A stretch of DNA of 64,000 nt from Aciduliprofundum sp. MAR08-339. GTDB lineage: Archaea > Thermoplasmatota > Thermoplasmata > Thermoplasmatales > Aciduliprofundaceae. Positions 4,411 to 56,539 of the stretch are shown one piece after another. Position numbers and translations under genes: made by a program. Below the pieces are notes generated by a model that searched no databases, was not told the origin of the DNA, and saw only the letters and a list, made by a program, of their open reading frames with translations. The stretch spans positions 372,001 through 436,000 of the forward strand of contig NC_019942.1 of the NCBI RefSeq assembly GCF_000327505.1, read 5' to 3'. Each line of letters begins with the position of its first letter. The first letter of the stretch is position 1.

Positions 4411-5910
4411 TCACTTTGCCAGTTCCATGGTTCTCTCTTTATACTCCATTTTTAGATTATCCACCTTCAACTCATACTTTTGGGCAAGTTTATCCCATTC
4501 GTCCCTAACCAAGATACAGCCGGGATCCACAGCCTTCAAATCTCCATAGTATGCGTATGCCCTAGCCCTGCATCCACCACACACATATCTGAATGGACAC
4601 TCATGACATGCGTAATCCGTGGCATCTCGATCCCTAAGAGCATTGAATATTGGGCTATTTTTCCATACATTAACAAAACCGTCCTTCAGAACATTTCCAA
4701 CCTTAACAGGGATAAACACACAAGGCTGGATGTCACCATTGTGCTCTATTGAGCAGTAAATACGTCCCGCCCCGCATCCTCCTATGAATTCGGTTAGGGC
4801 TTTGGTGGCACCTCCGAATTCCTCAGGCAGTTCCATCTCAGCAAAGTGGGTGGGTGAGACCTTTCCACCATGCTCCCCCATTCTAACAATTGAGATCCTA
4901 GAATAGGCGGGACATGTTGAGAATATCTGAATATCTCCCTTCTGCCATTCCTCGTAAAGGTAGTTCATCAGATTTTCCCTTTCTTCAGGAGTTAAATCCT
5001 CTCTCATTATGTTTTTACCACGCCCAGTGGGTATGAAGTTAAACACTATGAAACGATCCACCTTCAATTCCCTAGCAAGAGCAAGAATTTCAGGTATGGA
5101 ATCAATATTTTCATGGGTTGCCGTGGTGGCTATGCCCACCTCCAAACCTGCAGCCTTGGCGTTTTTTATCCCTCTGATCGTTGCATTAAAAGCACCCTTG
5201 ACCCCGCGGAACTCGTCATGTATCTCAGCATTTGGACCATCAAGGCTTATTTCAACATATCTTATTCCAACCTCCTTCAGTCTTTTAGCAACCTTTTCCG
5301 TAATGAGGGTGCCGTTGGTAGCTATTGTGAGATAGAATCCCTTTGATTTTGCATATTCAGCAACCTTCCAGAAATACCTGTTTACCAGAGGTTCCCCACC
5401 CGAGAAGGATATGGCTGCAACTCCCGCCTCATCAAGCTGATCCACAACGGCAAATCTCTCTTCTAGGGTGAGTTCATCCTTTGCAGGATATGGTGTGGCA
5501 TTGGCATAGCAGTGCTTGCATTTCAAATTGCACTGCTTTGTGAAATTCCATACAACCATAAAAGGTGCCACCAATCTCTGGGGCCTAGTTATACCGTACT
5601 CGGCAATACTTCTTATTATGACAGCAAACCCCTTACGCATATATGGATCCTTTAAAACTTTTTTTATGGCTTCAGGCTCAGCACCAAATCTCTCAGCACC
5701 CTTCTCTATAGCCTCGCCAACGACCTTGGCATACATTCTCTCCTTTATACCACTGGGTTTTTCCACACCTGCATATACGGCAAAGGCCCTTTCAAGTTTC
5801 TTAACTTCGCTCATCTCTTTAAGTATGAACCTGACAAATTTCTTGTCCATAACCCTGTGGAGATACTCAATTATATCTCCCTCTTCCATATTTTTCATAT
5901 CCTTTTCCAT
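4411..5910 (-). CDS. Radical SAM/SPASM domain protein
   Basis: About 499 residues. A helical N-terminal region of about 115 residues precedes the radical SAM core, whose cluster motif is CNLKCKHCY, followed by SFSGGEPL and the SLDGP strand. The C-terminus is a SPASM domain with cysteines for auxiliary Fe-S clusters (GGCGAGRIYC, QPCVF, CHECPFRYVCGGCRARA). This layout resembles AhbD/NirJ haem-pathway enzymes and peptide-modifying SPASM proteins, so the substrate stays open. GTG 5916 overlaps the upstream regulator gene, but ATG 5910 has AGGAGGTG at the better distance. It lies between a GbsR-like regulator and the B12 radical SAM gene, so the two radical enzymes are probably made together. Confidence 0.87.
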   Translation of the reverse strand: MEKDMKNMEEGDIIEYLHRVMDKKFVRFILKEMSEVKKLERAFAVYAGVEKPSGIKERMYAKVVGEAIEKGAERFGAEPEAIKKVLKDPYMRKGFAVIIRSIAEYGITRPQRLVAPFMVVWNFTKQCNLKCKHCYANATPYPAKDELTLEERFAVVDQLDEAGVAAISFSGGEPLVNRYFWKVAEYAKSKGFYLTIATNGTLITEKVAKRLKEVGIRYVEISLDGPNAEIHDEFRGVKGAFNATIRGIKNAKAAGLEVGIATTATHENIDSIPEILALARELKVDRFIVFNFIPTGRGKNIMREDLTPEERENLMNYLYEEWQKGDIQIFSTCPAYSRISIVRMGEHGGKVSPTHFAEMELPEEFGGATKALTEFIGGCGAGRIYCSIEHNGDIQPCVFIPVKVGNVLKDGFVNVWKNSPIFNALRDRDATDYACHECPFRYVCGGCRARAYAYYGDLKAVDPGCILVRDEWDKLAQKYELKVDNLKMEYKERTMELAK

Positions 5911-5912
5911 TT

Positions 5913-6326
5913 TCACACCTCCTTTTCCAATCTACCCAAATAATCAAGCGCCTCCTCCAGATGATTTATAAGCTCACGATGCACATTTCCATCGATCTCC
6001 TTGAGACATTTGCTGATCTCCGAAAGCATGCTGATAAGCCTCTTTCTCTCCATCCTTATTATGCCTATCAAGTCCAGAACTGCTGAATATTCGTAGCATC
6101 GTTCGCCTTTGGTGCGCTCCACTAGTCCAGCCCTTATGAGTTTGTTCAGTTCATTTACCACCGAAGAGTATGCTCTGCTTATCATCTCTGCTATCTTCTT
6201 AGCTCCAAGCGGTTTCTCAGATAGGGCAAGAAGTGCATATATGGATGCTTCTGTGTTTGAGAATCCCCATTGAAGCATAATGTTGCGAAGATTTTTATAT
6301 GCCTTTGTTTTCATCAAATCTTTCAT
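5913..6326 (-). CDS. GbsR/MarR-like winged-helix regulator
   Basis: A DNA-binding regulator of about 137 residues. The winged helix spans about residues 15-80 (FSNTEASIYALLALSEKPL, then the recognition helix region SYSSVVNELNKL-like and the wing VERTKGERCYEY), followed by a C-terminal coiled coil of the kind used for dimerisation. The frame is open up to a TTG at 6401, but that extension would translate the promoter into a hydrophobic peptide; the ATG at 6326 (or 6314) lies at leaderless distance from a TATA box and is preferred. It is the first gene of the radical SAM operon and probably autoregulates it; the ligand is unknown. Confidence 0.8.
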   Translation of the reverse strand: MKDLMKTKAYKNLRNIMLQWGFSNTEASIYALLALSEKPLGAKKIAEMISRAYSSVVNELNKLIRAGLVERTKGERCYEYSAVLDLIGIIRMERKRLISMLSEISKCLKEIDGNVHRELINHLEEALDYLGRLEKEV

Positions 6327-6348
6327 AAATATCGTAATTATCATAACA

Positions 6349-6358
6349 AATATAAACA
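6349..6358 (-). promoter_or_regulatory. TATA-like box of the regulator/radical SAM operon
   Basis: The minus strand reads TGTTTATA, centred about 27 bases upstream of the ATG at 6326. Its position supports the short version of the regulator and a leaderless operon mRNA. Confidence 0.5.
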
Positions 6359-6402
6359 TTTCCGTTAGAAGCAGAAAATTTCTGGATTTGCTCATGAACA
6401 AA

Positions 6403-30422: not shown

Positions 30423-30464
30423 ATTTTTAAAATGTATGCATTATCTATCGATTTGGGGATTACT

Positions 30465-32006
30465 ATGTATGTAATACAACCATCAAATCTCAAAAAGGGA
30501 CTTCCTAAGGAAACAAAGAGCATATGTCCCGTATGCGGAAAGGTGATACCCGCAACCATATACGAGGAGGACGGAAAGATATGGTACAAGAAGACCTGCC
30601 CAGAGCACGGTGAGTTCAAGGACATTTATTACGGAGACGCCGAGGTATGGCACTGGATGGAGAAATGGGGAACCATTCTGGATGGAGTTGGCCCCAAGAA
30701 TGTGAAGATCATAAATGGATACTCTGATCATCATTATTCATTCACCGCCCTGGCAAATCTGGATTTGACCAACAGGTGCAACCTTCGCTGTCCCATATGC
30801 TTTGCAAATGCCAACGCTGCTGGCTACGTTTACGAACCAGATTTTGATACAGTAGTGCGAATGATGAAGTATCTGAGGCAGGAGAGACCCGTGCCGACCC
30901 CTGCAATTCAATTTGCCGGGGGGGAGCCAACCATTTACCCGAGATTCTTTGATGTTATCCGTAAGGCCAAGGAGTTGGGATTCGCCCAGATTCAGGTGGC
31001 CACAAATGGAATCCTCATAGCCAACGATCCCACCTTTGCCCAGAAGATGGCCGATGCGGGAATGCACACGGTGTACCTGCAATTTGACGGTTTCAAGGAG
31101 AGTACGTACATAACAGCCAGAGGCCTGAATCTGCTACCCACAAAAATGAAGGCCATTGAGAATCTCCGTAAGGTCAAGCCAAAACCACTGGCAACGGTGC
31201 TAGTGCCTACCGTGGTAAAGGGAGTTAACGATGACGAGGTTGGAAAAATAGTGGAATTCGGATTGCAGAATCTTGATGTTATTCGCGCCGTGAATTTCCA
31301 ACCCGTATCCCTCTCGGGAAGAATTCCTCAGGGTGAGTTACTCAAGATGCGTTATACCACAGGAGATCTCATAAGGGATCTGCACGAGCAGACAGACTTC
31401 ATAGAAAAGACCGATTTCTTCCCAATACCCGTGGCAGCACTCTTCGCGGAGATCGCCTCTCAGATATTCAAGGATCCAAAACCGTCCTTCACGACGCACC
31501 CCGCCTGCGGTGCCGCAACCTATGTGTTCCACGACTACGAGAAGAAAAAGAACATTCCGATCGCCAGGTTCATTGATGTGGCCGGCCTTATTGAGGAAAT
31601 AACCCCACTCGTGTTCAACAAAACCTTTGAGAAGAAGAGCAAACTTGGAAGCATACTCACGCTTTACAAGATTCTCAAGAAGCACTACGACAAAGAGTAC
31701 GCCCCCAGCGGCTTCAAACTCAAGGAGATTGTGGGTGTGTTTGAGCAGGGAACCAAGGATTCCCTCGGCAAATTGCACTGGGACTCCATGTTCATAGGTG
31801 CCATGCACTTCCAGGATGCTTATAATTACGATATCCACCGCACTATAAGGTGCGTTATCCACTACGTGACCCCAGAGCCTAGCATAATACCATTCTGCTC
31901 CTACAACACGGGCCCCGTGTTCAGAGAGAAAATAGAAAAGAAGTACTCCATAAGCCTTGAAGAGTACAGAAAGAGACACGGCAACGTGGTGGGTGTTGAG
32001 GGATAA
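30465..32006 (+). CDS. tes: Radical SAM tetraether lipid synthase-like protein (Tes family)
   Basis: A 513-residue radical SAM enzyme of the COG1964 group that includes Tes (MJ0619), which joins the phytanyl chains of two archaeols into tetraether lipids. An N-terminal rubredoxin-like site has Cys21, Cys24, Cys45 and His48; the radical SAM cluster cysteines are 105, 109 and 112 in CNLRCPICFANANAAGYVY; IQFAGGEPT, YLQFDG and a C-terminal PFCSYNTGPVFREKIEKKY follow. The Cys-rich block that family members usually carry just before residue 95 is missing here (NGYSDHHYSF). ATG 30465 is preferred over 30432, which is too near the TATA box. It leads an operon with ferredoxin and geranylgeranyl reductase, supporting a lipid role. 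Confidence 0.85.
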   Translation: MYVIQPSNLKKGLPKETKSICPVCGKVIPATIYEEDGKIWYKKTCPEHGEFKDIYYGDAEVWHWMEKWGTILDGVGPKNVKIINGYSDHHYSFTALANLDLTNRCNLRCPICFANANAAGYVYEPDFDTVVRMMKYLRQERPVPTPAIQFAGGEPTIYPRFFDVIRKAKELGFAQIQVATNGILIANDPTFAQKMADAGMHTVYLQFDGFKESTYITARGLNLLPTKMKAIENLRKVKPKPLATVLVPTVVKGVNDDEVGKIVEFGLQNLDVIRAVNFQPVSLSGRIPQGELLKMRYTTGDLIRDLHEQTDFIEKTDFFPIPVAALFAEIASQIFKDPKPSFTTHPACGAATYVFHDYEKKKNIPIARFIDVAGLIEEITPLVFNKTFEKKSKLGSILTLYKILKKHYDKEYAPSGFKLKEIVGVFEQGTKDSLGKLHWDSMFIGAMHFQDAYNYDIHRTIRCVIHYVTPEPSIIPFCSYNTGPVFREKIEKKYSISLEEYRKRHGNVVGVEG

Positions 32007-32008
32007 GT

Positions 32009-32191
32009 ATGATGAAGGTTGACCCTTCCGTGTGCAATTACTGCGGTGCATGCGTGGGTTCATGCCCAGTAAACTGCATGTTTCTTGATGAGACGATAGT
32101 GAGGATAGATGAGGATAAGTGCATAAAGTGTGGGTTCTGCATACGCGCATGCCCCGTGGGTGCAATTGATGCAGAGTGGTGGTCAGAATGA
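32009..32191 (+). CDS. 2[4Fe-4S] ferredoxin
   Basis: A 60-residue ferredoxin with two clusters: CNYCGACVGSCPVNC and CIKCGFCIRACPVGA. It starts 2 bases after the tes stop and its own stop overlaps the start of the geranylgeranyl reductase (ATGA), so all three are translated together. It probably supplies low-potential electrons for the radical SAM step or for double-bond reduction. ATG 32009 and 32012 are both possible starts. Confidence 0.93.
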   Translation: MMKVDPSVCNYCGACVGSCPVNCMFLDETIVRIDEDKCIKCGFCIRACPVGAIDAEWWSE

Positions 32192-33375
32192 AAAGGTACG
32201 AGTACGATGTTCTTGTCATAGGCGCAGGTCCGGGGGGCTCAATGGCCGCAAGGTACGCTGCACGCCATGGACTAAGGGTTCTACTTGTGGAGAAGAGACC
32301 AGAAATAGGGGTGCCCGTGCGCTGTGCGGAGGGTATCTCCCGTGCATGGATGGACGAAGTGGAAATAGAACCTCAGGATAGGTGGATAGATGCTTACATG
32401 GATGGTGCAAAGATATACTCGCCAGATGAGAAGAGTGTTGTGGAGCTCACCGCAGAGCAGGCAGGCAACGAGGTTGGATTTGTGCTCAATCGCGAGTACT
32501 TTGACAAGTATCTTGCATCCCTGGCAGCAAAGGAGGGTGCAGAGATATGGATGAAGAGCCCGGCCATAGAGATAATCAAGGAAGATGGCTACATTAAGGG
32601 TGCAATAATACGTAAATTTGGAGAAAAGGTTGAAGTGCGAGCCAAGATAGTCATAGCAGCCGATGGTTTTGAATCCCAAGTGGCCCGGTGGGCAGGACTC
32701 AACACAGTGCTTCGCGAAAGGGATATTGTATCCTGCATACAGTACAGGATGACAAACATAGATATAGAGGAAAACTTCACCCACTTCTTCATAGGCTCCT
32801 GCGCTCCTGGAGGATACGTATGGATCTTCCCCAAGGGTAAGAAGGAGGCAAATGTTGGCATAGGCGTGGCGCTAAACAAGTTGAAGCACAGGGGAGAAGT
32901 TAAAAAGTACATGGACGAGTTTATTGAAAAACACGATTATCTCAAAAAGGGAAGCGTAATACAGATTGTCACCGGAGCCGTATCAACATGCCCTGTGCCA
33001 AAGAAGATAGTTGACAACGGAATAATGCTCGTGGGCGATGCCGCTCGCCTCATAGACCCAATAACCGGTGGTGGCATAGCAAATGCCTGCATCTCTGGAA
33101 AGTACGCTGGAGAGATAGCAGCAAAGTGCATAGATAATCCCAGCAGAGAATGCCTTGAGGAGTACCAGAACATGGTACAGGAGAAGTGGGGAAGAAAGCA
33201 CCTGCGCAACTGGTTCGTCAAGGAGAAACTCGCCGCTCTGAGTGATGACACACTGAACAAACTTATGGATGTGATTTCAAAGGAGAAAATAACAAAAATT
33301 TCAGTGAGAGGGATCCTTGAGGCAGTGCAGAAAAAGTACCCCGAACTCATTGAAGAGTTCGAAGACCTTCTCTAA
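32188..33375 (+). CDS. Geranylgeranyl reductase family flavoprotein
   Basis: A 395-residue FAD enzyme of the archaeal geranylgeranyl reductase family, which saturates the isoprenoid chains of membrane lipids. FAD motifs: VLVIGAGPGGSMAARYAA at the N-terminus, VEKRPEIGVPVRCAEG (the conserved PxxCxEG-like segment), IVIAADGFES, and MLVGDAARLIDPITGGGI. Length is normal. ATG 32188 overlaps the ferredoxin stop. With tes and ferredoxin it forms a compact lipid-maturation operon: saturation of chains and their coupling into tetraethers. Ferredoxin as electron donor is inferred from the operon. Confidence 0.92.
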   Translation: MKRYEYDVLVIGAGPGGSMAARYAARHGLRVLLVEKRPEIGVPVRCAEGISRAWMDEVEIEPQDRWIDAYMDGAKIYSPDEKSVVELTAEQAGNEVGFVLNREYFDKYLASLAAKEGAEIWMKSPAIEIIKEDGYIKGAIIRKFGEKVEVRAKIVIAADGFESQVARWAGLNTVLRERDIVSCIQYRMTNIDIEENFTHFFIGSCAPGGYVWIFPKGKKEANVGIGVALNKLKHRGEVKKYMDEFIEKHDYLKKGSVIQIVTGAVSTCPVPKKIVDNGIMLVGDAARLIDPITGGGIANACISGKYAGEIAAKCIDNPSRECLEEYQNMVQEKWGRKHLRNWFVKEKLAALSDDTLNKLMDVISKEKITKISVRGILEAVQKKYPELIEEFEDLL

Positions 33376-33380
33376 ATTTT

Positions 33381-34514
33381 TTATACATTTGCACCTCCCA
33401 ATTCTTCCAGTTGCTCCGCACTTCTTGCCTCCTTTTCGCTTAGTTCCCTCACACCGTGCCTCTTTCTGATCCATGCCACCAGCACATAGGATACCAGAAT
33501 AGGAGGAAGTATGTAGTAAACTATGTAATTCATAAGCCCGACAACGTACCACTCCAAGTATCCAAGATGGCCCCCAAGCATGGATAACCACTGCATCCTG
33601 AGATAATCCTTGCCGGATAGGGCGTAATTTAGGGCATTCACATTGAATATTATTAGCAGTATGTCCAGATAATTGGTGTATACGTTGGCAAGTGTGCTCA
33701 TACTTCTAGTAACTTTAAAGCCTGGAATGCGCCTGGTTGTGAAGGGAGGAAACATGTTACTTCCCATGAGTCCAAAGTGATCTGTGAGAATATGTGACCA
33801 GAAACCGAGCATTATGAGCCAGAAGGCGGTCCAGCCCATGGGAGTGAATCCGTAGAGCATAAAACCTATGGGCGCAAACATTACACCCAGGGTTATGCTG
33901 TGGGCCCATCTCCTGTGCCAGGGAATGAAATCTGCACGTACCCTGTTCTTGCCCTCTGGGAAGAATGAGAAATCAGGTCCAGAGAGAATATCCACGTGGG
34001 TCACCGCATCGTAATTGTAATCCAGATCTGCCTTGAATTCCGCCTCAGCATGGGCCTTCTCAGGAGGTAAGTAAGATGTGATGTAGGGCCTCTTCTCAAA
34101 TCCGGAGATTATTGGTCCTATATCACATATAACCTTCTTGTTTTCCGTATCAAAATGCACGGTATACTGTCTCCACTGATCCGATGAGATTTTTATGGTG
34201 TGGAGCATGACATTTACTTCCCTCTGCTCTTCTGCCGCCTGATCTATGGCCTTTGCAAGGGTCGTAGCCACCAAATTGGGATCAAGATTCCATTCATCCA
34301 TATCCACCTCATAATCATGCCTCTGCAGGTACTTGGCAAATCGAAAATCAATAGTATCGGGCAATATTCCGAAAATTCCTCCGAGAATTAGCACCAGTGC
34401 CTTGTGCACAACAATCTCGTTGGCGATAACATTGTTTCCATAGAACATATTTGCAATTACCACCACGAAGGTCGCCGTGGTTAATCCTGCCAGAAAATGG
34501 GCAAATCCCTTCAT
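33381..34514 (-). CDS. Membrane-bound hydrolase-like protein (YdjM/DUF457 type)
   Basis: A 377-residue membrane protein. MKGFAHFLAGL at the start, GGIFGILPDTIDF near residue 55, WHRRWAHSITLG in the middle and FWSHILTDHFGLMGSNMFPPF after it match the conserved His/Asp positions of the YdjM-like LexA-regulated membrane proteins, predicted metal-dependent hydrolases. A hydrophilic insertion of about 130 residues separates the first and second motif groups. ATG 34514 begins one base after the stop of the TctA-like gene with GTGGT upstream. It ends the five-gene OB-fold operon; a hydrolytic step on a lipid or nucleic acid at the membrane is conceivable but unproven. Confidence 0.8.
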   Translation of the reverse strand: MKGFAHFLAGLTTATFVVVIANMFYGNNVIANEIVVHKALVLILGGIFGILPDTIDFRFAKYLQRHDYEVDMDEWNLDPNLVATTLAKAIDQAAEEQREVNVMLHTIKISSDQWRQYTVHFDTENKKVICDIGPIISGFEKRPYITSYLPPEKAHAEAEFKADLDYNYDAVTHVDILSGPDFSFFPEGKNRVRADFIPWHRRWAHSITLGVMFAPIGFMLYGFTPMGWTAFWLIMLGFWSHILTDHFGLMGSNMFPPFTTRRIPGFKVTRSMSTLANVYTNYLDILLIIFNVNALNYALSGKDYLRMQWLSMLGGHLGYLEWYVVGLMNYIVYYILPPILVSYVLVAWIRKRHGVRELSEKEARSAEQLEELGGANV

Positions 34515-34515
34515 T

Positions 34516-35838
34516 TTACCACAACCCGAACAAGCCACCGAGGGCTATTCCGCTCATATTCAACCATATCGGCACGAGTATCACAGCAAGACAGTGGGAA
34601 CGGCGAGAATTGAAAAGCACGGGAATCAAACCAATGGCCGTTGCAACGGACATTATCAGCAATCCCTGCCAGGATGTCATAAAGAACACTATGGATACCA
34701 CTATACCAAGAACAACCAGATTGAGAACCTTGGGATTTATCTTGTATATCCTCTTAGCCAGAAACCTCGAAGCGAATATCACCACAAAGAAGGCATAAAG
34801 TCCGGCAATTGCAATTCCCATATCCACAAGATAGAACTGCTGCACGCTCTCAGGGGTGAAGAACAGATTTATTCCCATAGCAAGAGCACCGCGACGAATG
34901 TGAAGAACGGGAAGGAAGAAAAGAGATATTGCCCCCACATAATACACAACGCGGGATGCGCCCATGGATACGAGAAAACTCTTGTCTCCCTTCTGGGCAA
35001 AGCCATGGCTCGCCATGTAACCTCCAACACCAGCAGTCACAGCAGGCAGAAACGCTGCAAATAAACCTCCGGATGAGCCTGCCACCGCACCGTGCAAAAG
35101 TTCAACTGGTTTGGCGTCCACACTCTTTGGTATGTTCTGTTCTGGAATATCATATTTTGATATCAAATTCAAGATAATGGAGGACGTGGCAAACAATCCT
35201 ATGAGGGGCGCCATCAGACTCTGAAACGCATGATTTGCAGGTACTATTGTTTTATTGAAAGAGATTATACCAAGAATGGATGAGAGGAAAAAGGTGAGAT
35301 AGCCTGCCATTATGGTTTTCCATCCCTCCTTCAGACCATGAAGAGGATTCTTGTGTCTTCCGAAATCCTTGGGAAATTCTGAGAGGAGCATGTAGGCAAT
35401 TACTGCCCCTATTATCCAGTGAAGGTGGTTTGAAACTATATTCCACACTATTGAGAGAGGACCCATCAAAAGGGGCACAAAGAACACTATTGCAAGAAGT
35501 CCTGTAAGGGCACCGGTGGCTATCAAAACCACCGCCTCATGTCCACGGCCCTCCTTCAGATACCTCAGAGAGGGCATCAACACGAACATGGTGGAATCAT
35601 CTGGAGCACTGAAATATATTGAGGGTATGGTGAAGACAAAGGCATAGGTCACAAGCATACCTATGAGCATCAGAACCATGAGCATAGAGTTGAGGACAAA
35701 GGATGCACTGAAATAGAACAGAAGGAAGAAGCCAATCACATTGTAAACATGCAGTCCAGGCAGCATGGATAGTGCAGAGCCTATGAGCGCTCCCAAGAGC
35801 ACGAATGCAATGCACAAGAGCAAGAAGGTTATGCTCAA
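34516..35838 (-). CDS. TctA-like polytopic membrane protein (COG1784 type)
   Basis: A 440-residue protein with about eleven membrane segments, related to the TctA subunit of tripartite tricarboxylate transporters but of the archaeal stand-alone type. The glycine-rich repeat motifs are GSALSMLPGLHVYNVIG near residue 20 and GSSGGLFAAFLPAVTAGVGG near residue 255, the two pseudo-symmetric halves. No TctB or binding protein is adjacent; instead it is embedded in an operon of OB-fold proteins, with its start overlapping the upstream OB gene (4 bp). A paralogue is at 54620-55879. Substrate unknown. Confidence 0.82.
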   Translation of the reverse strand: MSITFLLLCIAFVLLGALIGSALSMLPGLHVYNVIGFFLLFYFSASFVLNSMLMVLMLIGMLVTYAFVFTIPSIYFSAPDDSTMFVLMPSLRYLKEGRGHEAVVLIATGALTGLLAIVFFVPLLMGPLSIVWNIVSNHLHWIIGAVIAYMLLSEFPKDFGRHKNPLHGLKEGWKTIMAGYLTFFLSSILGIISFNKTIVPANHAFQSLMAPLIGLFATSSIILNLISKYDIPEQNIPKSVDAKPVELLHGAVAGSSGGLFAAFLPAVTAGVGGYMASHGFAQKGDKSFLVSMGASRVVYYVGAISLFFLPVLHIRRGALAMGINLFFTPESVQQFYLVDMGIAIAGLYAFFVVIFASRFLAKRIYKINPKVLNLVVLGIVVSIVFFMTSWQGLLIMSVATAIGLIPVLFNSRRSHCLAVILVPIWLNMSGIALGGLFGLW

Positions 35839-37166
35839 CTTATCACCTCCACTACATCGTTTGTAAAGGGTCTAACCTTTATTTCGGGCTGACCGTTATA
35901 GTAAGTCACTATCCCCCTAACGAGAAGATGCTGGCCGTAATCTATATTTCTGAGCATTGCCCTGTTTTCCACGTAAATTACATAACTCCCATTCTCGCTC
36001 CACAGGGTTATACTCATAGAGTATGAAAATGCACGGTAATCCACAACCACTCCCTCAAGTTCTCTGAAGGAGAATTTGTTCATGGGACCATTTTTCTCGT
36101 AACTCTTCTTCTCTATGATCTTGTACTGGGGCTCCGCAATGAGTTCCCATTTTGGCTCACTCACAAAATCGCTTTTCCTTGAAACTGAAATTTCCCATAT
36201 ACCACGATAATTCACAAATCTACCCTGAATCTCCACATGATCTCCGGGAGCATAGTACTTGATACCGTAGCGAACATAAACTCTCACAATGGATCCGTTT
36301 GACTCAACGTAAATAGTGCTGTTTTCCAAGTTTCTGGATACAACGGTGGCCCATGGGATATGAACGTAGGTACCATTGTATTTCTCTGGAGAACCAACAA
36401 GCTGAGATATGCTCAATGTTCTGTAGGTATCTGTTGGTGCCTTTGGCTGGTACCACTGAAGGGCCCCATATATGCGCACGTATCCAGATGCAAGCGCACT
36501 TAAATTCAGCACGTTAAGAGAGTAATAGGCCCTTGGGATGACCACATCAAATTCATCATCAAGGGAGCATATGAATCCAAAACTGAATTCTCTAACACTT
36601 GTTATGTTTCCAGCCACATTCACCCTCTCTCCTGTACTGTACTCCCACGGTGAAGCAGATGTTATGTTTCTAATTGAGATTGCCGTGGATTTAGGTTTCT
36701 CGATGATTAGATAGTCCACATCGTTGAGGATCAGAGAATTTGAGGTGTACATGTAGGTACCCTTTATATCAACCACATCACCCATGGCTGGAATTTTTCC
36801 TTCCTCAACCATTCTTTTTATCACATTTCCATAAAGTTTCACGGTTATTGTTCCGGTACCATCATCCACCTTGAATCTGAAGGATGTTACCTTGTAATCG
36901 TTCTCATAAACCCAGGGATAGCCAACGATCTTACCGTGTATCCTTATGAAATTGTAATTATCGGTGAGCCCCAAATCCTTAATCTTGGTAACAGGAATCT
37001 CCCCTCCAAAATATGCCAGAACCCCGTAGGCAGATGCCAGTATCATAAGGGAGAGAGCAATTACATAAATTGTCTTGATTTTAACCCTGTGCTTTACATT
37101 GGCGGTGCAGTGAGGGCAAATTTCGGAATCATCAGGTATCTCCCTACCACAACTCGGACACTTCAT
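35835..37166 (-). CDS. Zinc-ribbon, membrane-anchored protein with tandem OB-like domains
   Basis: A 443-residue protein: N-terminal zinc ribbon (Cys3, Cys6, Cys17, Cys20), a membrane helix (about residues 33-53), and an extracytoplasmic part with about four OB-fold-like units. Their signature is a strand with V-x-G or VHIPWA, a loop, then GDxVxIxGxFxxYxGxWEI (for example DHVEIQGRFVNYRGIWEI). The DDGTGTITVKLYG segment is typical of nucleic-acid-type OB folds. The zinc ribbon should lie in the cytoplasm. Start ATG 37166 overlaps the upstream stop (ATGA). Third gene of the operon; no catalytic residues seen. Confidence 0.78.
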   Translation of the reverse strand: MKCPSCGREIPDDSEICPHCTANVKHRVKIKTIYVIALSLMILASAYGVLAYFGGEIPVTKIKDLGLTDNYNFIRIHGKIVGYPWVYENDYKVTSFRFKVDDGTGTITVKLYGNVIKRMVEEGKIPAMGDVVDIKGTYMYTSNSLILNDVDYLIIEKPKSTAISIRNITSASPWEYSTGERVNVAGNITSVREFSFGFICSLDDEFDVVIPRAYYSLNVLNLSALASGYVRIYGALQWYQPKAPTDTYRTLSISQLVGSPEKYNGTYVHIPWATVVSRNLENSTIYVESNGSIVRVYVRYGIKYYAPGDHVEIQGRFVNYRGIWEISVSRKSDFVSEPKWELIAEPQYKIIEKKSYEKNGPMNKFSFRELEGVVVDYRAFSYSMSITLWSENGSYVIYVENRAMLRNIDYGQHLLVRGIVTYYNGQPEIKVRPFTNDVVEVIS

Positions 37167-37969
37167 CCAATCACCCTTATATCCTTGATGCTTCCCGGTA
37201 TGAGCTCCCACGAGCCGCTCATAAAACTCCCGTACCACTCCAGAGAGCCCACAACCTCTATTCTTTTACCAGCCAGTTCCTTGATGTCCATGGAGGAGAA
37301 TTTAGCCACAGAGTAAGGGATGTACAGGTCCATATACCCTGTTCCATCAGTTATATTGAGAATGTAACTCTTTGCAGAGGTTTCAAACACCTTTTCCACA
37401 CTCACGTTTAATTTGACCCTTACAAACCTTCCATCGGGATACTGTATTGAATTGATATCCTCTATACTCATACTCACCGGCTTGGGCTTTGTTATTGTTA
37501 TTTCCTGAGGCGAGTTTAGTATCATATACACGTTGCTTCCCCTTATGTAAACCTCTCCAATTATATTCACATAATCCCCATACCCAGGAATCTTTCCTGC
37601 CCTTGCAAGTTTTTCCACCGTGGGACTGTAGACATGTACACTCATCATCCCCGTGCCATCATCCACGTCTATGTAGAGTGTGGAGGATCCTTCCTTATAG
37701 GTTATCAGCGAGGGAGGTGATGAAACTATGCCCCTAATCTCCACCGTACCGTAATTGTATGTCTGGGTTATGTCCTTTATTTGAACGTATTGTACAGGCA
37801 TGTTCTGTGCAAATATGAGCAGAAAAATTATACCAATCACTGCAAAGGCGAGAGAGCCATACTTTGCATAATAATACCCAGTGTGCTTGGGAATTTTGGT
37901 TCCGCAGTATGGGCACACCTCTAATGATCCAACGTATCTGCCGCAATTAGGACAGTATCTATCCTCCAT
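37163..37969 (-). CDS. Zinc-ribbon, membrane-anchored protein with two OB-like domains
   Basis: A 268-residue paralogue of the next gene in the operon: zinc ribbon (Cys6, Cys9, Cys19, Cys22), membrane helix (about residues 36-54), then two OB-like domains (about 70-155 with VDDGTGMMSVHVYS and GDYVNIIGEVYI; about 165-260 with ITDGTGYMDLYIPY and RIEVVGSLEWYG). GAGGTG lies before ATG 37969. Its start overlaps the end of the large PKD/OB gene by 49 bp, an unusually long overlap that implies translational coupling or a recent change in the upstream reading frame's end. Confidence 0.78.
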   Translation of the reverse strand: MEDRYCPNCGRYVGSLEVCPYCGTKIPKHTGYYYAKYGSLAFAVIGIIFLLIFAQNMPVQYVQIKDITQTYNYGTVEIRGIVSSPPSLITYKEGSSTLYIDVDDGTGMMSVHVYSPTVEKLARAGKIPGYGDYVNIIGEVYIRGSNVYMILNSPQEITITKPKPVSMSIEDINSIQYPDGRFVRVKLNVSVEKVFETSAKSYILNITDGTGYMDLYIPYSVAKFSSMDIKELAGKRIEVVGSLEWYGSFMSGSWELIPGSIKDIRVIG

Positions 37970-40830
37970 ACAAGCACCTCTTCAAATTTTGATTTCAGGG
38001 GCATGTTTCCGACCTTACCCGTATTGCTTTCCTTCACAATATCAGAAGAAAACCTAGGAAGAATCTCGTAATAGGACGTATAGGGTGAGGTTTTATCGTA
38101 CTGAGCAACCACCCCAATTACTGTGAGATTCTCGCCCACCGATATATTTGATATATCAATCCCAGCTGCCTTGGCATATATTTCTATGCTTCCATTTCCA
38201 TCATCAAGATAGAAATAACCTGATGCGGAATTCACGCTTGTCACGGTACCATGGACCTCAACGAGCATTCCCTCTATTTTCTCAGCATTTGTCCAGTTTT
38301 TGAAGTATCCCGTGGATACATTCAAAGGAGCGGGGACTTGGCCCTTGCCCATATACCTTATGTAGTTGAGGGATGTGATCTTTATTTCCGCCTCTCCATT
38401 GTACTGGGCTATGGTTCCACGAACCTGCACCTTGGAACCCTCAGTCAAATTGAGTTTGGTGTAATTCAGACCATATCCGAATACAAGAACTCCTCCTGTG
38501 AGGTCCTCAACATACATCTTCAATATAGGCTTCCCGCTGCTTGAAGACACGTAGGAGAAGATATCCGGCGCCGCAATCACGGTGGCATTGACTATTACCT
38601 GCTCTCCGAGATGTACAAGAACTCCATCGGAATCAACCTCGTGCACGTAGGAAAGATTAACATACCTTGCAGATGAGTGCAAAACAACAACCCTATCCTG
38701 AGTTCCCGCCCTGAGGAGTATCTCATAGGTACCATTGTGCTCTGTAACCTTACCGTATATCTTTATGGTGTCTCCCACACCCACATAGGGAACATTCACA
38801 CCCTTCTGGGCGTACACCGCAATATCCTGAGAGTTGGATGTGGAATTGCTGACCCAGAAGAGGTAGGAGTACTTCACATTTACAACAGTGGCATTGGGAA
38901 TCTCAACCAATGTTCCGTTGTAAGCGCTTGAATTTTCCAGAATGCTTCCTATATTCACCACCTTGTATGAAACGGTGTTTTTAACAATAACCGTGTCATT
39001 TGTATTGTTTCTGATTTTGAACTCCCAGGTATGGTTGTATTGGCTCACCATCCCCCAGATTTCCACCGTGGCGTTGATGTAGGGAGTACCATTTACCACC
39101 CCACCCCTCTCAACGTACACACTCATATCCACAGAATTTGATGTGGAGTTGCTCACCCAGAACAGCCAGTTGGCAACCACGCTCTTAACCTTTGCGTATG
39201 GCACATGCACCAATGTGTTGTTGTAATCCTCCGGATTTTTAAGTATCTGGGTTATATTGACCTCCCTGTAAGTCTGGGGTCTTGTAGACACGTAGTCGTA
39301 CGATTTGGGCCTTATTTTTATCTCCCACTCTCCCCTGTAGGATGTGAACTGCCCATAAACATCAGCGTAATAGCCCTCCTTAACATTACCCATATTAGAG
39401 CCGTTAAATCCAACCACCTTTACCTCCGAGCCGTTCCAGAATAGCCCGAAGAGGGTAAAGTGAGAAGTTGAATTTTCATAGAGCCAGGAAATTACACCCC
39501 AGGAGTGTACATTGGTTCCATTGTAGGCGATGGGATCCGCAAGGAGGTCTTCCACGGATATGTCCCTATAAGTTGGTTTGCTGAGTACCACAACCCGATC
39601 AGTGGTTGCATTTCTTATCTTTATTTCCCAAGAACCGCGATAAACAACCAGGTTTCCCCATATCTCTACCTTGGCACCGTTGAAAATCATACCATTCACA
39701 ACACCGCCACGCTGAACATACACATGGAGGGTGGAACTGGCGTTTGTTGTGTTACCTATATCAAAACTCCAGGATGCAAAGGAGGATGTGACGTATGCAT
39801 AGGGTATGTGTATTGCTGAGTTATTGTACTTCTCAGGATTTTGAATTAGGGCGCCAACGCTCACATCCTGGTATGAAGACCTTACATAACGGGAGAAGTC
39901 AGATGTTGAGTTTCTCACGTATATTTCCATATAACTAACGTTGAGCCTGTAGGAATGATAGTATGTGAGAAAACCCTGCACCTCAAAAACATCCCCCACC
40001 GCGGGAGATCCCGTGGAATTGGCATTAAAGGATACGTACACGGTCAAATTGCCTATGGAATAACGATACGATGCATAAACTGCACTGACCCTTCCAACAA
40101 TGTGCACAAAGGAGTTGTTGTACCCCTCCCATTCATCGGGGCTTATTGTGGCATAGGTGTTATGCCCCCCATGGGAGAGAATCTTCACATAATCCCTTCC
40201 ATTATTTTCAACTTTCAACTCCAACTGGTTGCGATAAACGGTGAATCTCGCCCTTATCTCAAGATAATCACCGTATCGCATACTCTGGGGCTTGGGAGCA
40301 CCCGGCTCCACATAAACCCTTATTCCCCTGTAGCCGGAGGAGTTAACCAGGAAGAAACTGTAATTTCTACCGTAGGCAAATATTCCGTACACATTCACCT
40401 CTCTACCTATATACTCAGAAACGTTTCCAAGCAGTTTATTCACAGAGGTCTTTATCACCCTGGTGGGCATCTTAACTATGGAGATATTTTTGCGTGCATA
40501 GGAGTATGCTCCATCGTTGTCATACACGATGAGGGTCACAGTGTAATTACCCGGAGCGGTATATGTGTGCTGCACAATCTTACCTGCAGATTTTGAGCCA
40601 TCCCCAAAATCCCAGATATAGGACATTATGAAGCCATCGTCCACAGAATTTGCAGCAGAAAACTGCACAGGAAATCCCACATATCCCTTGGAAGGAGCAG
40701 TTATTATGGCCACAGGAGGATTGTTGATCATACCTCTTTCAGTGGAGGCGTAGTATATTGCAGGTACACCTATGGCAATTACAAGCAGAGAGAGGATCAC
40801 CATTGCCTTTATTTTGACAGTATCCACCAT
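37921..40830 (-). CDS. Giant surface protein: PKD domain plus about eight tandem OB-like repeats
   Basis: A 969-residue extracytoplasmic protein. A single N-terminal hydrophobic segment (about residues 7-29) anchors or exports it; a PKD domain follows (about 37-115, with YIWDFGDGS and GNYTVTLIVYD). From residue about 130 to 935 I count roughly eight OB-fold-like repeats of about 95 residues, each with a Y-N-x-T/S-x-V-H entry strand and a V-E-I-x-G-x(5)-Y-x-G-x-W-E-[IF] strand (for example GSWEIKIRNATTDRVVV). The last repeat has YLDDGNGSIEIYA. OB folds of this kind bind single-stranded nucleic acid or oligosaccharide. It heads the operon with its own TATA box (GGTTTTAATATG) and GAGGTGA before ATG. 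Confidence 0.78.
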   Translation of the reverse strand: MVDTVKIKAMVILSLLVIAIGVPAIYYASTERGMINNPPVAIITAPSKGYVGFPVQFSAANSVDDGFIMSYIWDFGDGSKSAGKIVQHTYTAPGNYTVTLIVYDNDGAYSYARKNISIVKMPTRVIKTSVNKLLGNVSEYIGREVNVYGIFAYGRNYSFFLVNSSGYRGIRVYVEPGAPKPQSMRYGDYLEIRARFTVYRNQLELKVENNGRDYVKILSHGGHNTYATISPDEWEGYNNSFVHIVGRVSAVYASYRYSIGNLTVYVSFNANSTGSPAVGDVFEVQGFLTYYHSYRLNVSYMEIYVRNSTSDFSRYVRSSYQDVSVGALIQNPEKYNNSAIHIPYAYVTSSFASWSFDIGNTTNASSTLHVYVQRGGVVNGMIFNGAKVEIWGNLVVYRGSWEIKIRNATTDRVVVLSKPTYRDISVEDLLADPIAYNGTNVHSWGVISWLYENSTSHFTLFGLFWNGSEVKVVGFNGSNMGNVKEGYYADVYGQFTSYRGEWEIKIRPKSYDYVSTRPQTYREVNITQILKNPEDYNNTLVHVPYAKVKSVVANWLFWVSNSTSNSVDMSVYVERGGVVNGTPYINATVEIWGMVSQYNHTWEFKIRNNTNDTVIVKNTVSYKVVNIGSILENSSAYNGTLVEIPNATVVNVKYSYLFWVSNSTSNSQDIAVYAQKGVNVPYVGVGDTIKIYGKVTEHNGTYEILLRAGTQDRVVVLHSSARYVNLSYVHEVDSDGVLVHLGEQVIVNATVIAAPDIFSYVSSSSGKPILKMYVEDLTGGVLVFGYGLNYTKLNLTEGSKVQVRGTIAQYNGEAEIKITSLNYIRYMGKGQVPAPLNVSTGYFKNWTNAEKIEGMLVEVHGTVTSVNSASGYFYLDDGNGSIEIYAKAAGIDISNISVGENLTVIGVVAQYDKTSPYTSYYEILPRFSSDIVKESNTGKVGNMPLKSKFEEVLVWRIDTVLIAADTLDH

Positions 40831-40863: not shown

Positions 40864-41733
40864 TTAAGGCCGAACCCAGGAAACTTTGAAATAAACGATC
40901 TTATCCTCTTTCAGATAAGATAGAAGCAGGATTTTCCTTACTCCGTGAGCAACTCTCACGGCCCGACTTATTTTTTGTATCTCCTCACTCCGGGATATAA
41001 CATGAACAAGGTAGTTTGAATGCTCCTCCATGCTCTTCTCGTATGCCCTGAAATGTGTGCCATACTTGAAACCCGATTTAACTATCAGGCCATTTTCTCT
41101 TAGATCCCTATAGACCCGGTAAATGCGGGTTTTTACCTGTGGCTTTTTATCGCACAAACCCTTTTCCCACAGGTACATGGCCTCAAGAACGCTGAGATGG
41201 CCCCATTCACCCTCGCTCCTCCCAAAGGTGGTTGAGTCAATAAGCTCAGGAGAGTAAAGAACGGTTCTCTTGCCAAGAATCTCAACACTCAGAGCCTCCT
41301 TGGGAAGGTTGAAATATTCTCCACGGGGCTCAGCGAGATCCACGAGATAGTATGTAACCTCACCATCTGTATCAACCACTGCAAGCATAAGTGGGAATTC
41401 TTTGGATAAGAAATCCTCCGGGCGAAAATAGTCCATATCAGACATTGGATAAAAATTCATCGAGTAATTTTTCCTTCCCCTGAAATGGGTATCCCTAACT
41501 TCCAGCACATAGCCCCTATCCCGAAGGTCCCTGTACACGAGGTAAAAAATATCAAAATTACTCAACTTGTGTGATACTTCCCTCAATGCGGAGGAAAAAT
41601 CGCATTTGATTATATCTCTCTCACAAAGATATGCAAATTCAACCCATGAAAGGAGAAGGCATTTTCCATTTCTTCTTCCAAAACCTCGAGATTGGAGTTT
41701 GTCTGCAATCTTACCGCAAACTTCCGGGTTCAT
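40864..41733 (-). CDS. endA: tRNA-splicing endonuclease
   Basis: A 289-residue homodimer-type (two-repeat) archaeal EndA, which cuts bulge-helix-bulge motifs in intron-containing RNA. The C-terminal repeat is catalytic: GFKYGTHFRAYEKS...HSNYLVHV and RVAHGVRKILLL supply the Tyr/His/Lys triad (about Tyr231, His238, Lys267). The N-terminal half is a degenerate copy (YRDLRDRGYVLEV, THFRGRKNYSM) lacking the triad, as in alpha2-type enzymes. A substrate is in this window: tRNA-Arg with a 49-base intron at 49631. The start overlaps the stop of the GTPase gene (ATGA). Confidence 0.95.
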   Translation of the reverse strand: MNPEVCGKIADKLQSRGFGRRNGKCLLLSWVEFAYLCERDIIKCDFSSALREVSHKLSNFDIFYLVYRDLRDRGYVLEVRDTHFRGRKNYSMNFYPMSDMDYFRPEDFLSKEFPLMLAVVDTDGEVTYYLVDLAEPRGEYFNLPKEALSVEILGKRTVLYSPELIDSTTFGRSEGEWGHLSVLEAMYLWEKGLCDKKPQVKTRIYRVYRDLRENGLIVKSGFKYGTHFRAYEKSMEEHSNYLVHVISRSEEIQKISRAVRVAHGVRKILLLSYLKEDKIVYFKVSWVRP

Positions 41734-42206
41734 AATGTCCCTTCCACTATGCTGGAAAATACAGTTTCCACGTTCTCACCCGTCTTGGCGCTCGTGAGAA
41801 AATAGGGATAGCCAAATGCATCCGATATATCCTCAAGTTCGTCCTTCCAAAACTCTGCGCGGTACTTCAAATCGTTTTTATTGGCCACAAATATCTTCTG
41901 GGCCTTGTGACCATCAAGAAACTCCGCAATCTGACCCATGGTTTCAAGGGTTTCCCTGCGGGTAAGATCTCCCACAATTATTATGGCCTTTGCTCCGGAT
42001 AGAATGGGCTTTATGTTCTGCTCGTAAACACTAACATCCCAGATGAGAAGCGTTACTTCCCCAACCTTCCTGCGACATGTTTTTGATTGAAGGGTCTCAT
42101 CAATCTCGCTCTCAAATGCATCATATACAAATCTCCTTATGAGCGAGGTTTTACCCACTGACTTATCACCGAGTACACAGACCTTCCAGATTTTTGGTGC
42201 TCTCAT
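41730..42206 (-). CDS. Small Ras-like GTPase with altered switch II
   Basis: A 158-residue stand-alone small GTPase. G1 is GDKSVGKTSLIRRF, G4 is ANKNDLK and G5 is TSAKTGEN; all are intact. The G3 motif, normally WDxAGQE, is WDVSVYEQ, so the invariant glycine and the catalytic glutamine are missing, and hydrolysis may be slow or need a partner. Prokaryotic relatives often act in motility, polarity or membrane traffic. TATA (TTTTAAATACC, minus strand, about 42228-42238) and AGGTGG precede the ATG. It overlaps endA by 4 bp and so is made with it; the reason for that pairing is unknown. Confidence 0.88.
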   Translation of the reverse strand: MRAPKIWKVCVLGDKSVGKTSLIRRFVYDAFESEIDETLQSKTCRRKVGEVTLLIWDVSVYEQNIKPILSGAKAIIIVGDLTRRETLETMGQIAEFLDGHKAQKIFVANKNDLKYRAEFWKDELEDISDAFGYPYFLTSAKTGENVETVFSSIVEGTL

Positions 42207-54619: not shown

Positions 54620-55879
54620 ATGGATGTTTTGCTCTACATCCTCTTCGTTTTCCTGGGAATTGCCTTCGGCATATTAACGGGCCTCACCCCCGGATTTCAC
54701 GTGAATAACGTCGCGATTATAGCACTTTCCATATATGCGGCAACAAAGATAGATGCATTTCTTCTGGCAAATATGATAGTTGCAAATATGATAACCCACA
54801 CCTTTTTGGATTTCATACCCTCCACATTTTTAGGTGCTCCCAGTGAGGACACCTCGCTCTCCGTGCTACCAATGCACAGGTTACTTCTTCATGGTCAGGG
54901 GTATCGCGCAGTGTACATATCCACGTTCGGCTCTCTACTGGCCACGCTGTTTGCAATGCCACTGATCCCCCTTTTCAAGATAGCACTAATTGACCTCAAT
55001 CTCTCAAATTACCTCACATACTACACCCCCGTAATACTTGTGGCAATAATCCTCGGGATTCTGTATATGGAGAGTAAAAAAGGATTGAAATATATCGCTC
55101 TTGCCTCACTCATCTTCATTCTATCAGGAATATTCGGATACCTTGCTCTGAACATACCTCTAAACAACAACTATATGCCATTAAGATTAACACCAAACAC
55201 ACTATTTCCCGTTTTCACAGGATTATTTGGCATACCCGTACTGATACTCTCACAGCACACAGAGGTGCCAGAGCAGAAGATTGAGAAGGTGCATGTTCTG
55301 AAGAAACATTATTTCTCATCCATGATAGGTACGCTCACAGGTTCCCTGGTTGGTTTTTTACCGGGAGTAACCTCTGGGGTGGCCGCCGTTCTATCAAGAT
55401 TATTTGTGAAGAATGATGACACCGAGGATTTCATCTTCGCACTGGGAAGTGTGAACACATCAAATTACATATTTAATTTACTGGCACTTTTTCTCATCCT
55501 GAAACCCAGAAGCGGGGCTGTGAACGCAATCTCCCAGATGATCACAGTTAATCTCTGGAACTTCAGCACCCTTCCACCAGGAGATTTTGTGATTATACTT
55601 CTAACCGTGGTTATAGCTTCAATTGCTTCCTTCTTCATAACTCTGAAAATAGGAAAATTCGTTGCTCTCAAAATTGGAAATATTGGATCAAGGTACGGGC
55701 TTATATCCAGAGCCATGATCCTCACACTGGGCGTGCTTATTTTCATATTTTCGGGCACTATTGGGTTGTTCCTAGCAGTGGTGGCAACACTAATTGGGCT
55801 GCTCCCTCCAAAACTGGGCACAATGCGTGTTCATCTCATGGGAGTAATCATTCTACCCGCACTCCTGGCATACCTGTGA
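54620..55879 (+). CDS. TctA-like polytopic membrane protein (COG1784 type), second copy
   Basis: A 419-residue paralogue of the 34516-35838 protein, with about eleven membrane segments and the same two glycine-rich motifs: GILTGLTPGFHVNNVAI near residue 15 and GSLVGFLPGVTSGVAAVL near residue 240, plus the shared D-x-T/S-x(4)-P-x(2)-R-L block after FLGAPSEDTSLSVLPM. Overall size and order agree. It has no TctB or solute-binding partner nearby; its neighbours are the giant surface protein (divergent) and a soluble hypothetical protein. The start fits a leaderless mRNA. Substrate unknown. Confidence 0.82.
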   Translation: MDVLLYILFVFLGIAFGILTGLTPGFHVNNVAIIALSIYAATKIDAFLLANMIVANMITHTFLDFIPSTFLGAPSEDTSLSVLPMHRLLLHGQGYRAVYISTFGSLLATLFAMPLIPLFKIALIDLNLSNYLTYYTPVILVAIILGILYMESKKGLKYIALASLIFILSGIFGYLALNIPLNNNYMPLRLTPNTLFPVFTGLFGIPVLILSQHTEVPEQKIEKVHVLKKHYFSSMIGTLTGSLVGFLPGVTSGVAAVLSRLFVKNDDTEDFIFALGSVNTSNYIFNLLALFLILKPRSGAVNAISQMITVNLWNFSTLPPGDFVIILLTVVIASIASFFITLKIGKFVALKIGNIGSRYGLISRAMILTLGVLIFIFSGTIGLFLAVVATLIGLLPPKLGTMRVHLMGVIILPALLAYL

Positions 55880-55933: not shown

Positions 55934-56539
55934 ATGGCAAAGAAAGAAGAGGTCAACTGGTATGAGAAACTTGAAAGCGAACTAGAGAAGAAGAGAGATG
56001 AGGTTATAAAAACAATTTCCACCGAAAAGGAGACGAAGAAAGAACTGAATATGAACCTCATTGAAGATTTCTGGAGGATCTGGCTTCAGTTTAACAAGAT
56101 AAATGTTCATTTCAGAATGGATCCCCCACACTCAGAATGGGGTCAGTTTATAGTTTTCCCCGATAAATGGAACCTTCGCGAGGATTTTGATTTTTCCTCA
56201 GTTACGGAGATAAGCCTGGTGGATTTAACAAGGGATCAGAACAGGACCGGGGATTCTCTGAAAATAGTGTATTACGGCACAGAGGAGGGCGAGAGGCTCA
56301 AGATGATCTTCGAATTCTTTGAAGGAGAGGAGTATTACAAGTACTCGGGCCTAAAAAGGATTTACAGCCAGTACATACTCTACGATGAGAAAGTCAGCAA
56401 AGCAAGCCTGGATAAGATAAGGGAGATCCTTTTAAAGGTAATACCCAAATGGTACGAGTCCCATCTCAAGGGAGATAGAAGCATAATAATAGATTTCATA
56501 AAGAAGGAGTACACAAAGGGAGAGACCTTCGCCGTCTAA
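55934..56539 (+). CDS. Uncharacterised soluble protein
   Basis: A 201-residue protein with a charged helical N-terminus (about 40 residues, coiled-coil-like), a compact central domain rich in aromatic residues (FWRIWLQFNKINVHFRMDPP, SEWGQFIVFPDKW) and a helical C-terminus. No signal peptide, membrane segment or cysteine. I do not recognise a family. Promoter TAATTTTATATCCC (about 55888-55900) and GGAGGG before the ATG are good, so it is a real, separately transcribed gene. It converges with the KaiC cluster, overlapping the last gene there by 4 bp. Confidence 0.7.
   Translation: MAKKEEVNWYEKLESELEKKRDEVIKTISTEKETKKELNMNLIEDFWRIWLQFNKINVHFRMDPPHSEWGQFIVFPDKWNLREDFDFSSVTEISLVDLTRDQNRTGDSLKIVYYGTEEGERLKMIFEFFEGEEYYKYSGLKRIYSQYILYDEKVSKASLDKIREILLKVIPKWYESHLKGDRSIIIDFIKKEYTKGETFAV

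Follow-up and report, generated by a model that had tools for sequence, protein, structure and literature searches.

Archaea take up DNA, yet in those known to be competent a DNA transporter resembling ComEC has not been recognised (PMC10133366). In Methanococcus maripaludis, a transposon screen identified MMJJ_13020, an OB-fold protein with one transmembrane (TM) helix, and MMJJ_13030, a TctA-like protein with 11 TM helices, as essential for natural transformation, and both were complemented. A TctA homologue is also essential in Methanoculleus thermophilus, and the authors put TctA forward as the DNA transporter that had been missing in archaea. Other transformation genes of M. maripaludis encode type IV-like pili and a thermonuclease that is secreted and likewise required (PMC10133366). 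For bacterial ComEC, an OB fold that binds DNA has been predicted within the DUF4131 domain (PMC5031224).

Here we describe an operon of Aciduliprofundum sp. MAR08-339 that joins a TctA-family protein to three OB-fold proteins and a YdjM-family protein. The window, that is, the whole stretch of DNA that was analysed, is 64,000 nucleotides long, and the host genome is a single contig of 1.44 Mb. The features of the operon are the following:

33381-40830, minus strand: the five-gene operon (a TM-PKD-8xOB protein, two zinc-ribbon/TM/OB proteins, a TctA-family and a YdjM-family protein).
37921-40830, minus strand: PKD/OB protein of 969 aa, with a TM helix at residues 7-25, PKD at 36-110 and eight OB domains at residues 123-934 (window 38029-40464), from Pfam, AlphaFold, Foldseek and a repeat profile.
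37163-37969, minus strand: zinc-ribbon/TM/OB protein of 268 aa, with an N-terminal zinc ribbon, one TM helix at 39-57 and two OB domains predicted outside, from Pfam, alignment A5 and hhalign.
35835-37166, minus strand: zinc-ribbon/TM/OB protein of 443 aa, with an N-terminal zinc ribbon, one TM helix at 33-51 and about four OB domains predicted outside, from Pfam, the repeat profile and hhalign.
34516-35838, minus strand: TctA-family polytopic membrane protein of 440 aa, from a divergent subfamily that we call opB, with a TTG start, from Pfam and a tree.
33381-34514, minus strand: YdjM-family membrane protein, with an ATG at 34514; an upstream GTG at 34538 is the alternative start in the ORF list.

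The preliminary description of this DNA had reported five co-directional, tightly joined genes, and both the reading frames and the junctions were as described: one 49-bp overlap, two 4-bp overlaps and one 1-bp gap. The overlap between the PKD/OB gene and the adjacent zinc-ribbon/OB gene measures 40-79 bp in ten related loci and 4 bp in an eleventh; since it recurs in this way, it is not a sequencing error. The gene content given there (PKD, OB, TctA, YdjM) was also borne out by Pfam matches above the gathering score. Genes for a tRNA-splicing endonuclease and a Ras-like GTPase (40864-42206, minus strand) lie immediately upstream on the same strand, and the endonuclease gene still adjoins the PKD/OB gene in several family relatives. 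On the other side, genes for the tetraether lipid synthase Tes and a geranylgeranyl reductase, GGR (30432-33375, plus strand), are convergent with the operon, a neighbourhood confined to the genus. A PADLOC search with the five operon proteins gave no match, and the idea of a defence system was dropped.

All three proteins upstream of TctA carry OB domains. Pfam matched PKD_4 (5e-22) and OB (PF01336, 1e-13) in the PKD/OB protein, and OB in the 268-aa (1.2e-7) and 443-aa (3.3e-7) proteins, all above the gathering score; the zinc ribbons of the latter two fell slightly under the Pfam cut-offs, with their cysteines invariant across the aligned orthologues. In the structure that AlphaFold predicts for the 969-aa protein (mean pLDDT 80.6), a TM helix and a PKD domain are followed by eight OB-like beta units. 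In support of this, a profile built from repeats 1-6 detected eight domains in the same protein, so the "about eight" repeats of the preliminary description are exactly eight. The same profile matched the OB domains of the 443-aa protein, in four stretches of which two were strong, as well as small OB proteins of other genomes (see below). When the PKD/OB model was compared with the PDB, Foldseek returned PKD domains and the OB folds of HIN (HIN-200; p204/IFI16), RPA70, Teb1, BRCA2 and LEF-3, with probability 1.00 for HIN, RPA, Teb1 and BRCA2. The model and its matches thus confirm that the repeats are five-stranded OB barrels. Note that the PDB is rich in nucleic-acid-binding OB proteins, and because of this the matches confirm the fold and not the ligand.

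Each zinc-ribbon protein has one TM helix, with the higher positive charge on the zinc-ribbon side. Moreover, the PKD/OB protein contains 40 N-X-S/T sequons, compared with 11.6 +/- 3.1 in shuffled versions. From the charge near the TM helices and the excess of sequons, the OB domains likely lie outside and the zinc ribbons inside, as had been suggested, and the PKD/OB protein is probably a glycosylated surface protein. The OB regions are not basic: the window repeats are near neutral and some orthologues are strongly acidic (pI 4.05 in G352). Electrostatics thus gives DNA binding no support and counts against the import of nucleic acid.

How does this locus compare with the known pairs? As in M. 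maripaludis, judged by the published description of that pair, a single-TM OB protein is encoded next to a TctA-family protein. The operon differs in its number of OB proteins, which is three, in the OB domains they carry, up to eight in one protein, and in its zinc ribbons, PKD domain, YdjM-like protein and divergent TctA. The earlier statement that no characterised system has this set is therefore true of the five genes together and untrue of their OB-TctA core.

Simpler OB-TctA pairs are common closer to home. In many Thermoplasmatota families, a protein of about 211 aa with a TM helix and two OB domains (mini-OB) is encoded directly upstream of a canonical TctA, and in the mini-OB clade the OB protein adjoins TctA in 21 of 22 rows. 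The arrangement of these pairs (L087-L099, L111-L117, L125, L127), with a TM+OB gene immediately before TctA, is that of the operon; unlike the operon, they lack the zinc ribbon, the PKD/OB protein and the YdjM-like partner, and their TctA is canonical. Comparison of the mini-OB family by hhalign gave a probability of 96.5% with the 268-aa protein and 96.8% with the 443-aa protein, and the former looks like a mini-OB protein of the kind that partners canonical TctA, with a cytosolic zinc ribbon added. Both plasmid-borne TctA homologues that we found are cyanobacterial (L130, Cylindrospermopsis; L131, Pseudanabaena), and each has an OB protein directly upstream. No TctA relatives were found on viral contigs or phages.

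A more distant resemblance is to bacterial ComEC. The two are analogous in that a TM-anchored OB domain faces outward and is combined with a polytopic membrane protein and associated nucleases, and 16 of the 19 mini-OB proteins weakly matched DUF4131 (best E 1.2e-5). The operon is nevertheless not a member: ComEC unites a DUF4131 OB domain, a channel and a nuclease domain, whereas the operon has separate proteins and a TctA-type candidate channel in place of PF03772. In the Aciduliprofundum genome the PF03772 competence domain had no match, and it was found in 10 control genomes. The genome also carries three strong matches to T2SSE, the pilus/archaellum-type ATPases.

The window TctA matched PF01970 over almost the full profile (4.1e-46, 157.9 bits against a cut-off of 28.9, profile positions 1-422 of 423). 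It is 79-92% identical to its counterparts inside the family and 91% identical to its nearest named relatives, which are Aciduliprofundum MAGs. In a tree built by a quick method, opB formed a separate deep clade with a very long stem, outside the canonical clade. A PDB sequence search with the TctA and YdjM profiles returned nothing significant, and for a kinship of TctA with DUF368-type polyprenyl-phosphate transporters no paper among those listed joined both terms. The same genome encodes a canonical TctA and its candidate partners:

54620-55879, plus strand: second TctA paralogue, canonical, conserved across the family including the sister genus without the operon.
L143:6397-7227 and 5748-6365: the mini-OB gene of the same genome and the adjoining gene, whose PLD-family product is secreted and has an HKD motif, an adjacency also seen in G003, G012 and G021.

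The mini-OB gene lies outside the window, at about 450.4-451.2 kb (G000:C1), unlinked to the canonical TctA gene; it and its PLD neighbour are likely partners of the canonical TctA. A gene at 55934-56539, for a protein of 201 aa with no confident Pfam match, neighbours the canonical TctA gene and is conserved together with it. Since the genome has a canonical TctA and a mini-OB gene, and the window TctA belongs to a separate clade, the operon is a second OB-TctA system. Being a divergent paralogue, its TctA does not simply inherit the known function, and a role in transformation, if Aciduliprofundum has one, may lie with the canonical TctA/OB pair rather than with the operon.

We then compared the operon across relatives. 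The gene set is kept in five families. Gene order is kept in the home family and in another family of its order (G018), and it is largely the same in three more, f13 (G286, G289), f16 (G352) and f45 (G101); in G101 a different large secreted protein replaces the PKD/OB gene. An OB protein adjoins TctA in all 12 opB loci. The conserved core consists of TctA and the YdjM-like protein (77-92% within the family); the OB proteins have changed more quickly, and the number of repeats detected in them ranges from 8 to 12. The sister genus g4 lacks opB and retains the canonical TctA, and one of its members (G006) also retains the mini-OB. Linkage of the set is thus conserved, except that the YdjM-like gene sits on another contig in G286 and G289.

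That gene is present in these two genomes nonetheless, and its distribution follows that of opB: all 18 genomes that have opB TctA contain it and none of the 12 that lack opB do, the latter including four of the sister genus, counts that come from related genomes and represent fewer independent events. This co-inheritance is the best argument for a functional tie of the fifth gene to the set. The protein matched YdjM (PF04307) at 5e-9 and 36.3 bits against a cut-off of 29. Numbered from the GTG at 34538, its His/Asp motifs (H14, D61, D64, H208, H213, H249, D253) are invariant in 14 orthologues. They follow the order seen in E. coli YdjM, namely H, PDxxD/PDxD, HRxxxHS and HxxxD; the window protein differs by an insertion of about 130 residues that separates the first motif pair from the second. 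Profile A1 did not pick up E. coli YdjM, and the window type always accompanies opB TctA. It is a putative metal-dependent hydrolase, an activity predicted for the YdjM family as a whole. The model of the protein was of moderate quality (pLDDT 70) and had no PDB match below E 0.3, a result that speaks neither for nor against a known nuclease or phospholipase fold. In two further families, genes for small YdjM-family-like proteins, below the cut-off, come immediately behind a canonical TctA gene (L123:6193-6645, L129:6451-6870). In genus g2 (L036:12856-14907 and equivalents), the YdjM-like gene is followed co-directionally by genes for an HD-domain protein and a 246-253-aa protein without a Pfam match.

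Putative nucleases recur beside these modules. One of them is in G352:

L086:17982-18866: TM-anchored SNase+LTD nuclease, directly upstream of the PKD/OB gene.

SNase was present in only 3 of the 32 genomes searched, among them G352, where it adjoins the operon, and G018, where it lies at another place. No SNase, and with it no counterpart of the secreted thermonuclease of M. maripaludis, was found in the Aciduliprofundum genome itself. In G101 a secreted protein with two PLD domains is encoded directly after YdjM; a secreted PLD protein also adjoins the mini-OB gene in Aciduliprofundum and relatives, a PLD+LTD protein follows the canonical TctA in G383, and on the Cylindrospermopsis plasmid the gene behind TctA is of the NERD (nuclease-related) type. 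PLD domains may have lipids, besides DNA, as their substrates.

Taken together, we consider it somewhat probable that the operon encodes a cell-surface apparatus for the capture and import of nucleic acid, a second, elaborated OB-TctA module akin to the transformation module of Methanococcus. The preliminary description had offered uptake or processing of nucleic acid as a speculative reading, which is now the best supported one because the M. maripaludis pair is essential for natural transformation (PMC10133366), within the limit set by the divergence of the window TctA. For the signalling also suggested there, no evidence was found. In the proposed mechanism, the anchored and probably glycosylated PKD-8xOB protein and the two zinc-ribbon proteins would hold nucleic acid, presumably DNA, at the outer face of the membrane, and the TctA-type permease would serve as the channel for its inward passage. 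The YdjM-family protein, as a hydrolase, and, in some relatives, the nucleases of the neighbouring genes may process the DNA or a membrane-linked intermediate, and the cytosolic zinc ribbons could take over the strand as it enters or make contact with partners in the cytosol.

The same hardware might instead capture and degrade extracellular nucleic acid as food, as a source of phosphate, nitrogen or nucleosides. This fits the SNase and PLD proteins, which are extracellular and encoded next to the modules; moreover, the separate canonical TctA and mini-OB could already serve transformation, and the sister genus without opB has kept the canonical TctA, with the mini-OB kept in its member G006. 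However, the conserved set contains no nucleotidase or nucleoside transporter, and the tested homologues serve transformation, so we regard a nutritional role as unlikely.

A small-molecule transporter, in which TctA retains its TTT-family role on a carboxylate or other anion and the OB proteins replace the TctC binding protein, is quite unlikely. The TctA domain is full length, as in the TctABC tripartite tricarboxylate transporter, and archaeal TctA (arCOG04469) has been predicted to transport carboxylates (Makarova et al.; PMC5898192). Against this, TctB is absent from the genome, TctC had no match above the cut-off (a single sub-cut-off stretch lies elsewhere in the genome), and OB proteins stand in their stead. 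Eight tandem OB domains and nuclease neighbours would also be unusual for a binder of small solutes, and the genetics of M. maripaludis speaks for another function.

Finally, the handling of surface glycans or lipid-linked oligosaccharides, with OB domains binding oligosaccharide, TctA moving a lipid or sugar carrier and YdjM acting on membrane lipids, also seems quite unlikely: OB folds are able to bind oligosaccharides, the OB regions here are not basic, and Tes and GGR lie next door within the genus, but the conserved set includes no glycosyltransferase or carrier-synthesis gene, the lipid-gene neighbourhood is lost outside the genus, and the nuclease and ComEC-domain links point elsewhere.

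Returning to nucleic-acid import, a bolder and tentative proposal, which we hold to be less likely than not, is that TctA and OB proteins form the archaeal DNA translocon in place of ComEC. The operon would then be a second machine dedicated to nucleic-acid import, in which a multi-OB protein is the surface receptor, the zinc-ribbon proteins are adaptors and a YdjM-family membrane hydrolase is the processing enzyme. The perfect co-inheritance of the YdjM-like gene with opB offers a way into the YdjM family, which is widespread and has no known function, and, if the translocon proposal is right, a YdjM-family protein would gain a concrete role. If OB-TctA modules are the archaeal DNA transporter, the OB receptor, the channel and the hydrolase become testable parts, and competence could become predictable from gene content across the euryarchaea and perhaps in cyanobacteria whose plasmids carry the pair.
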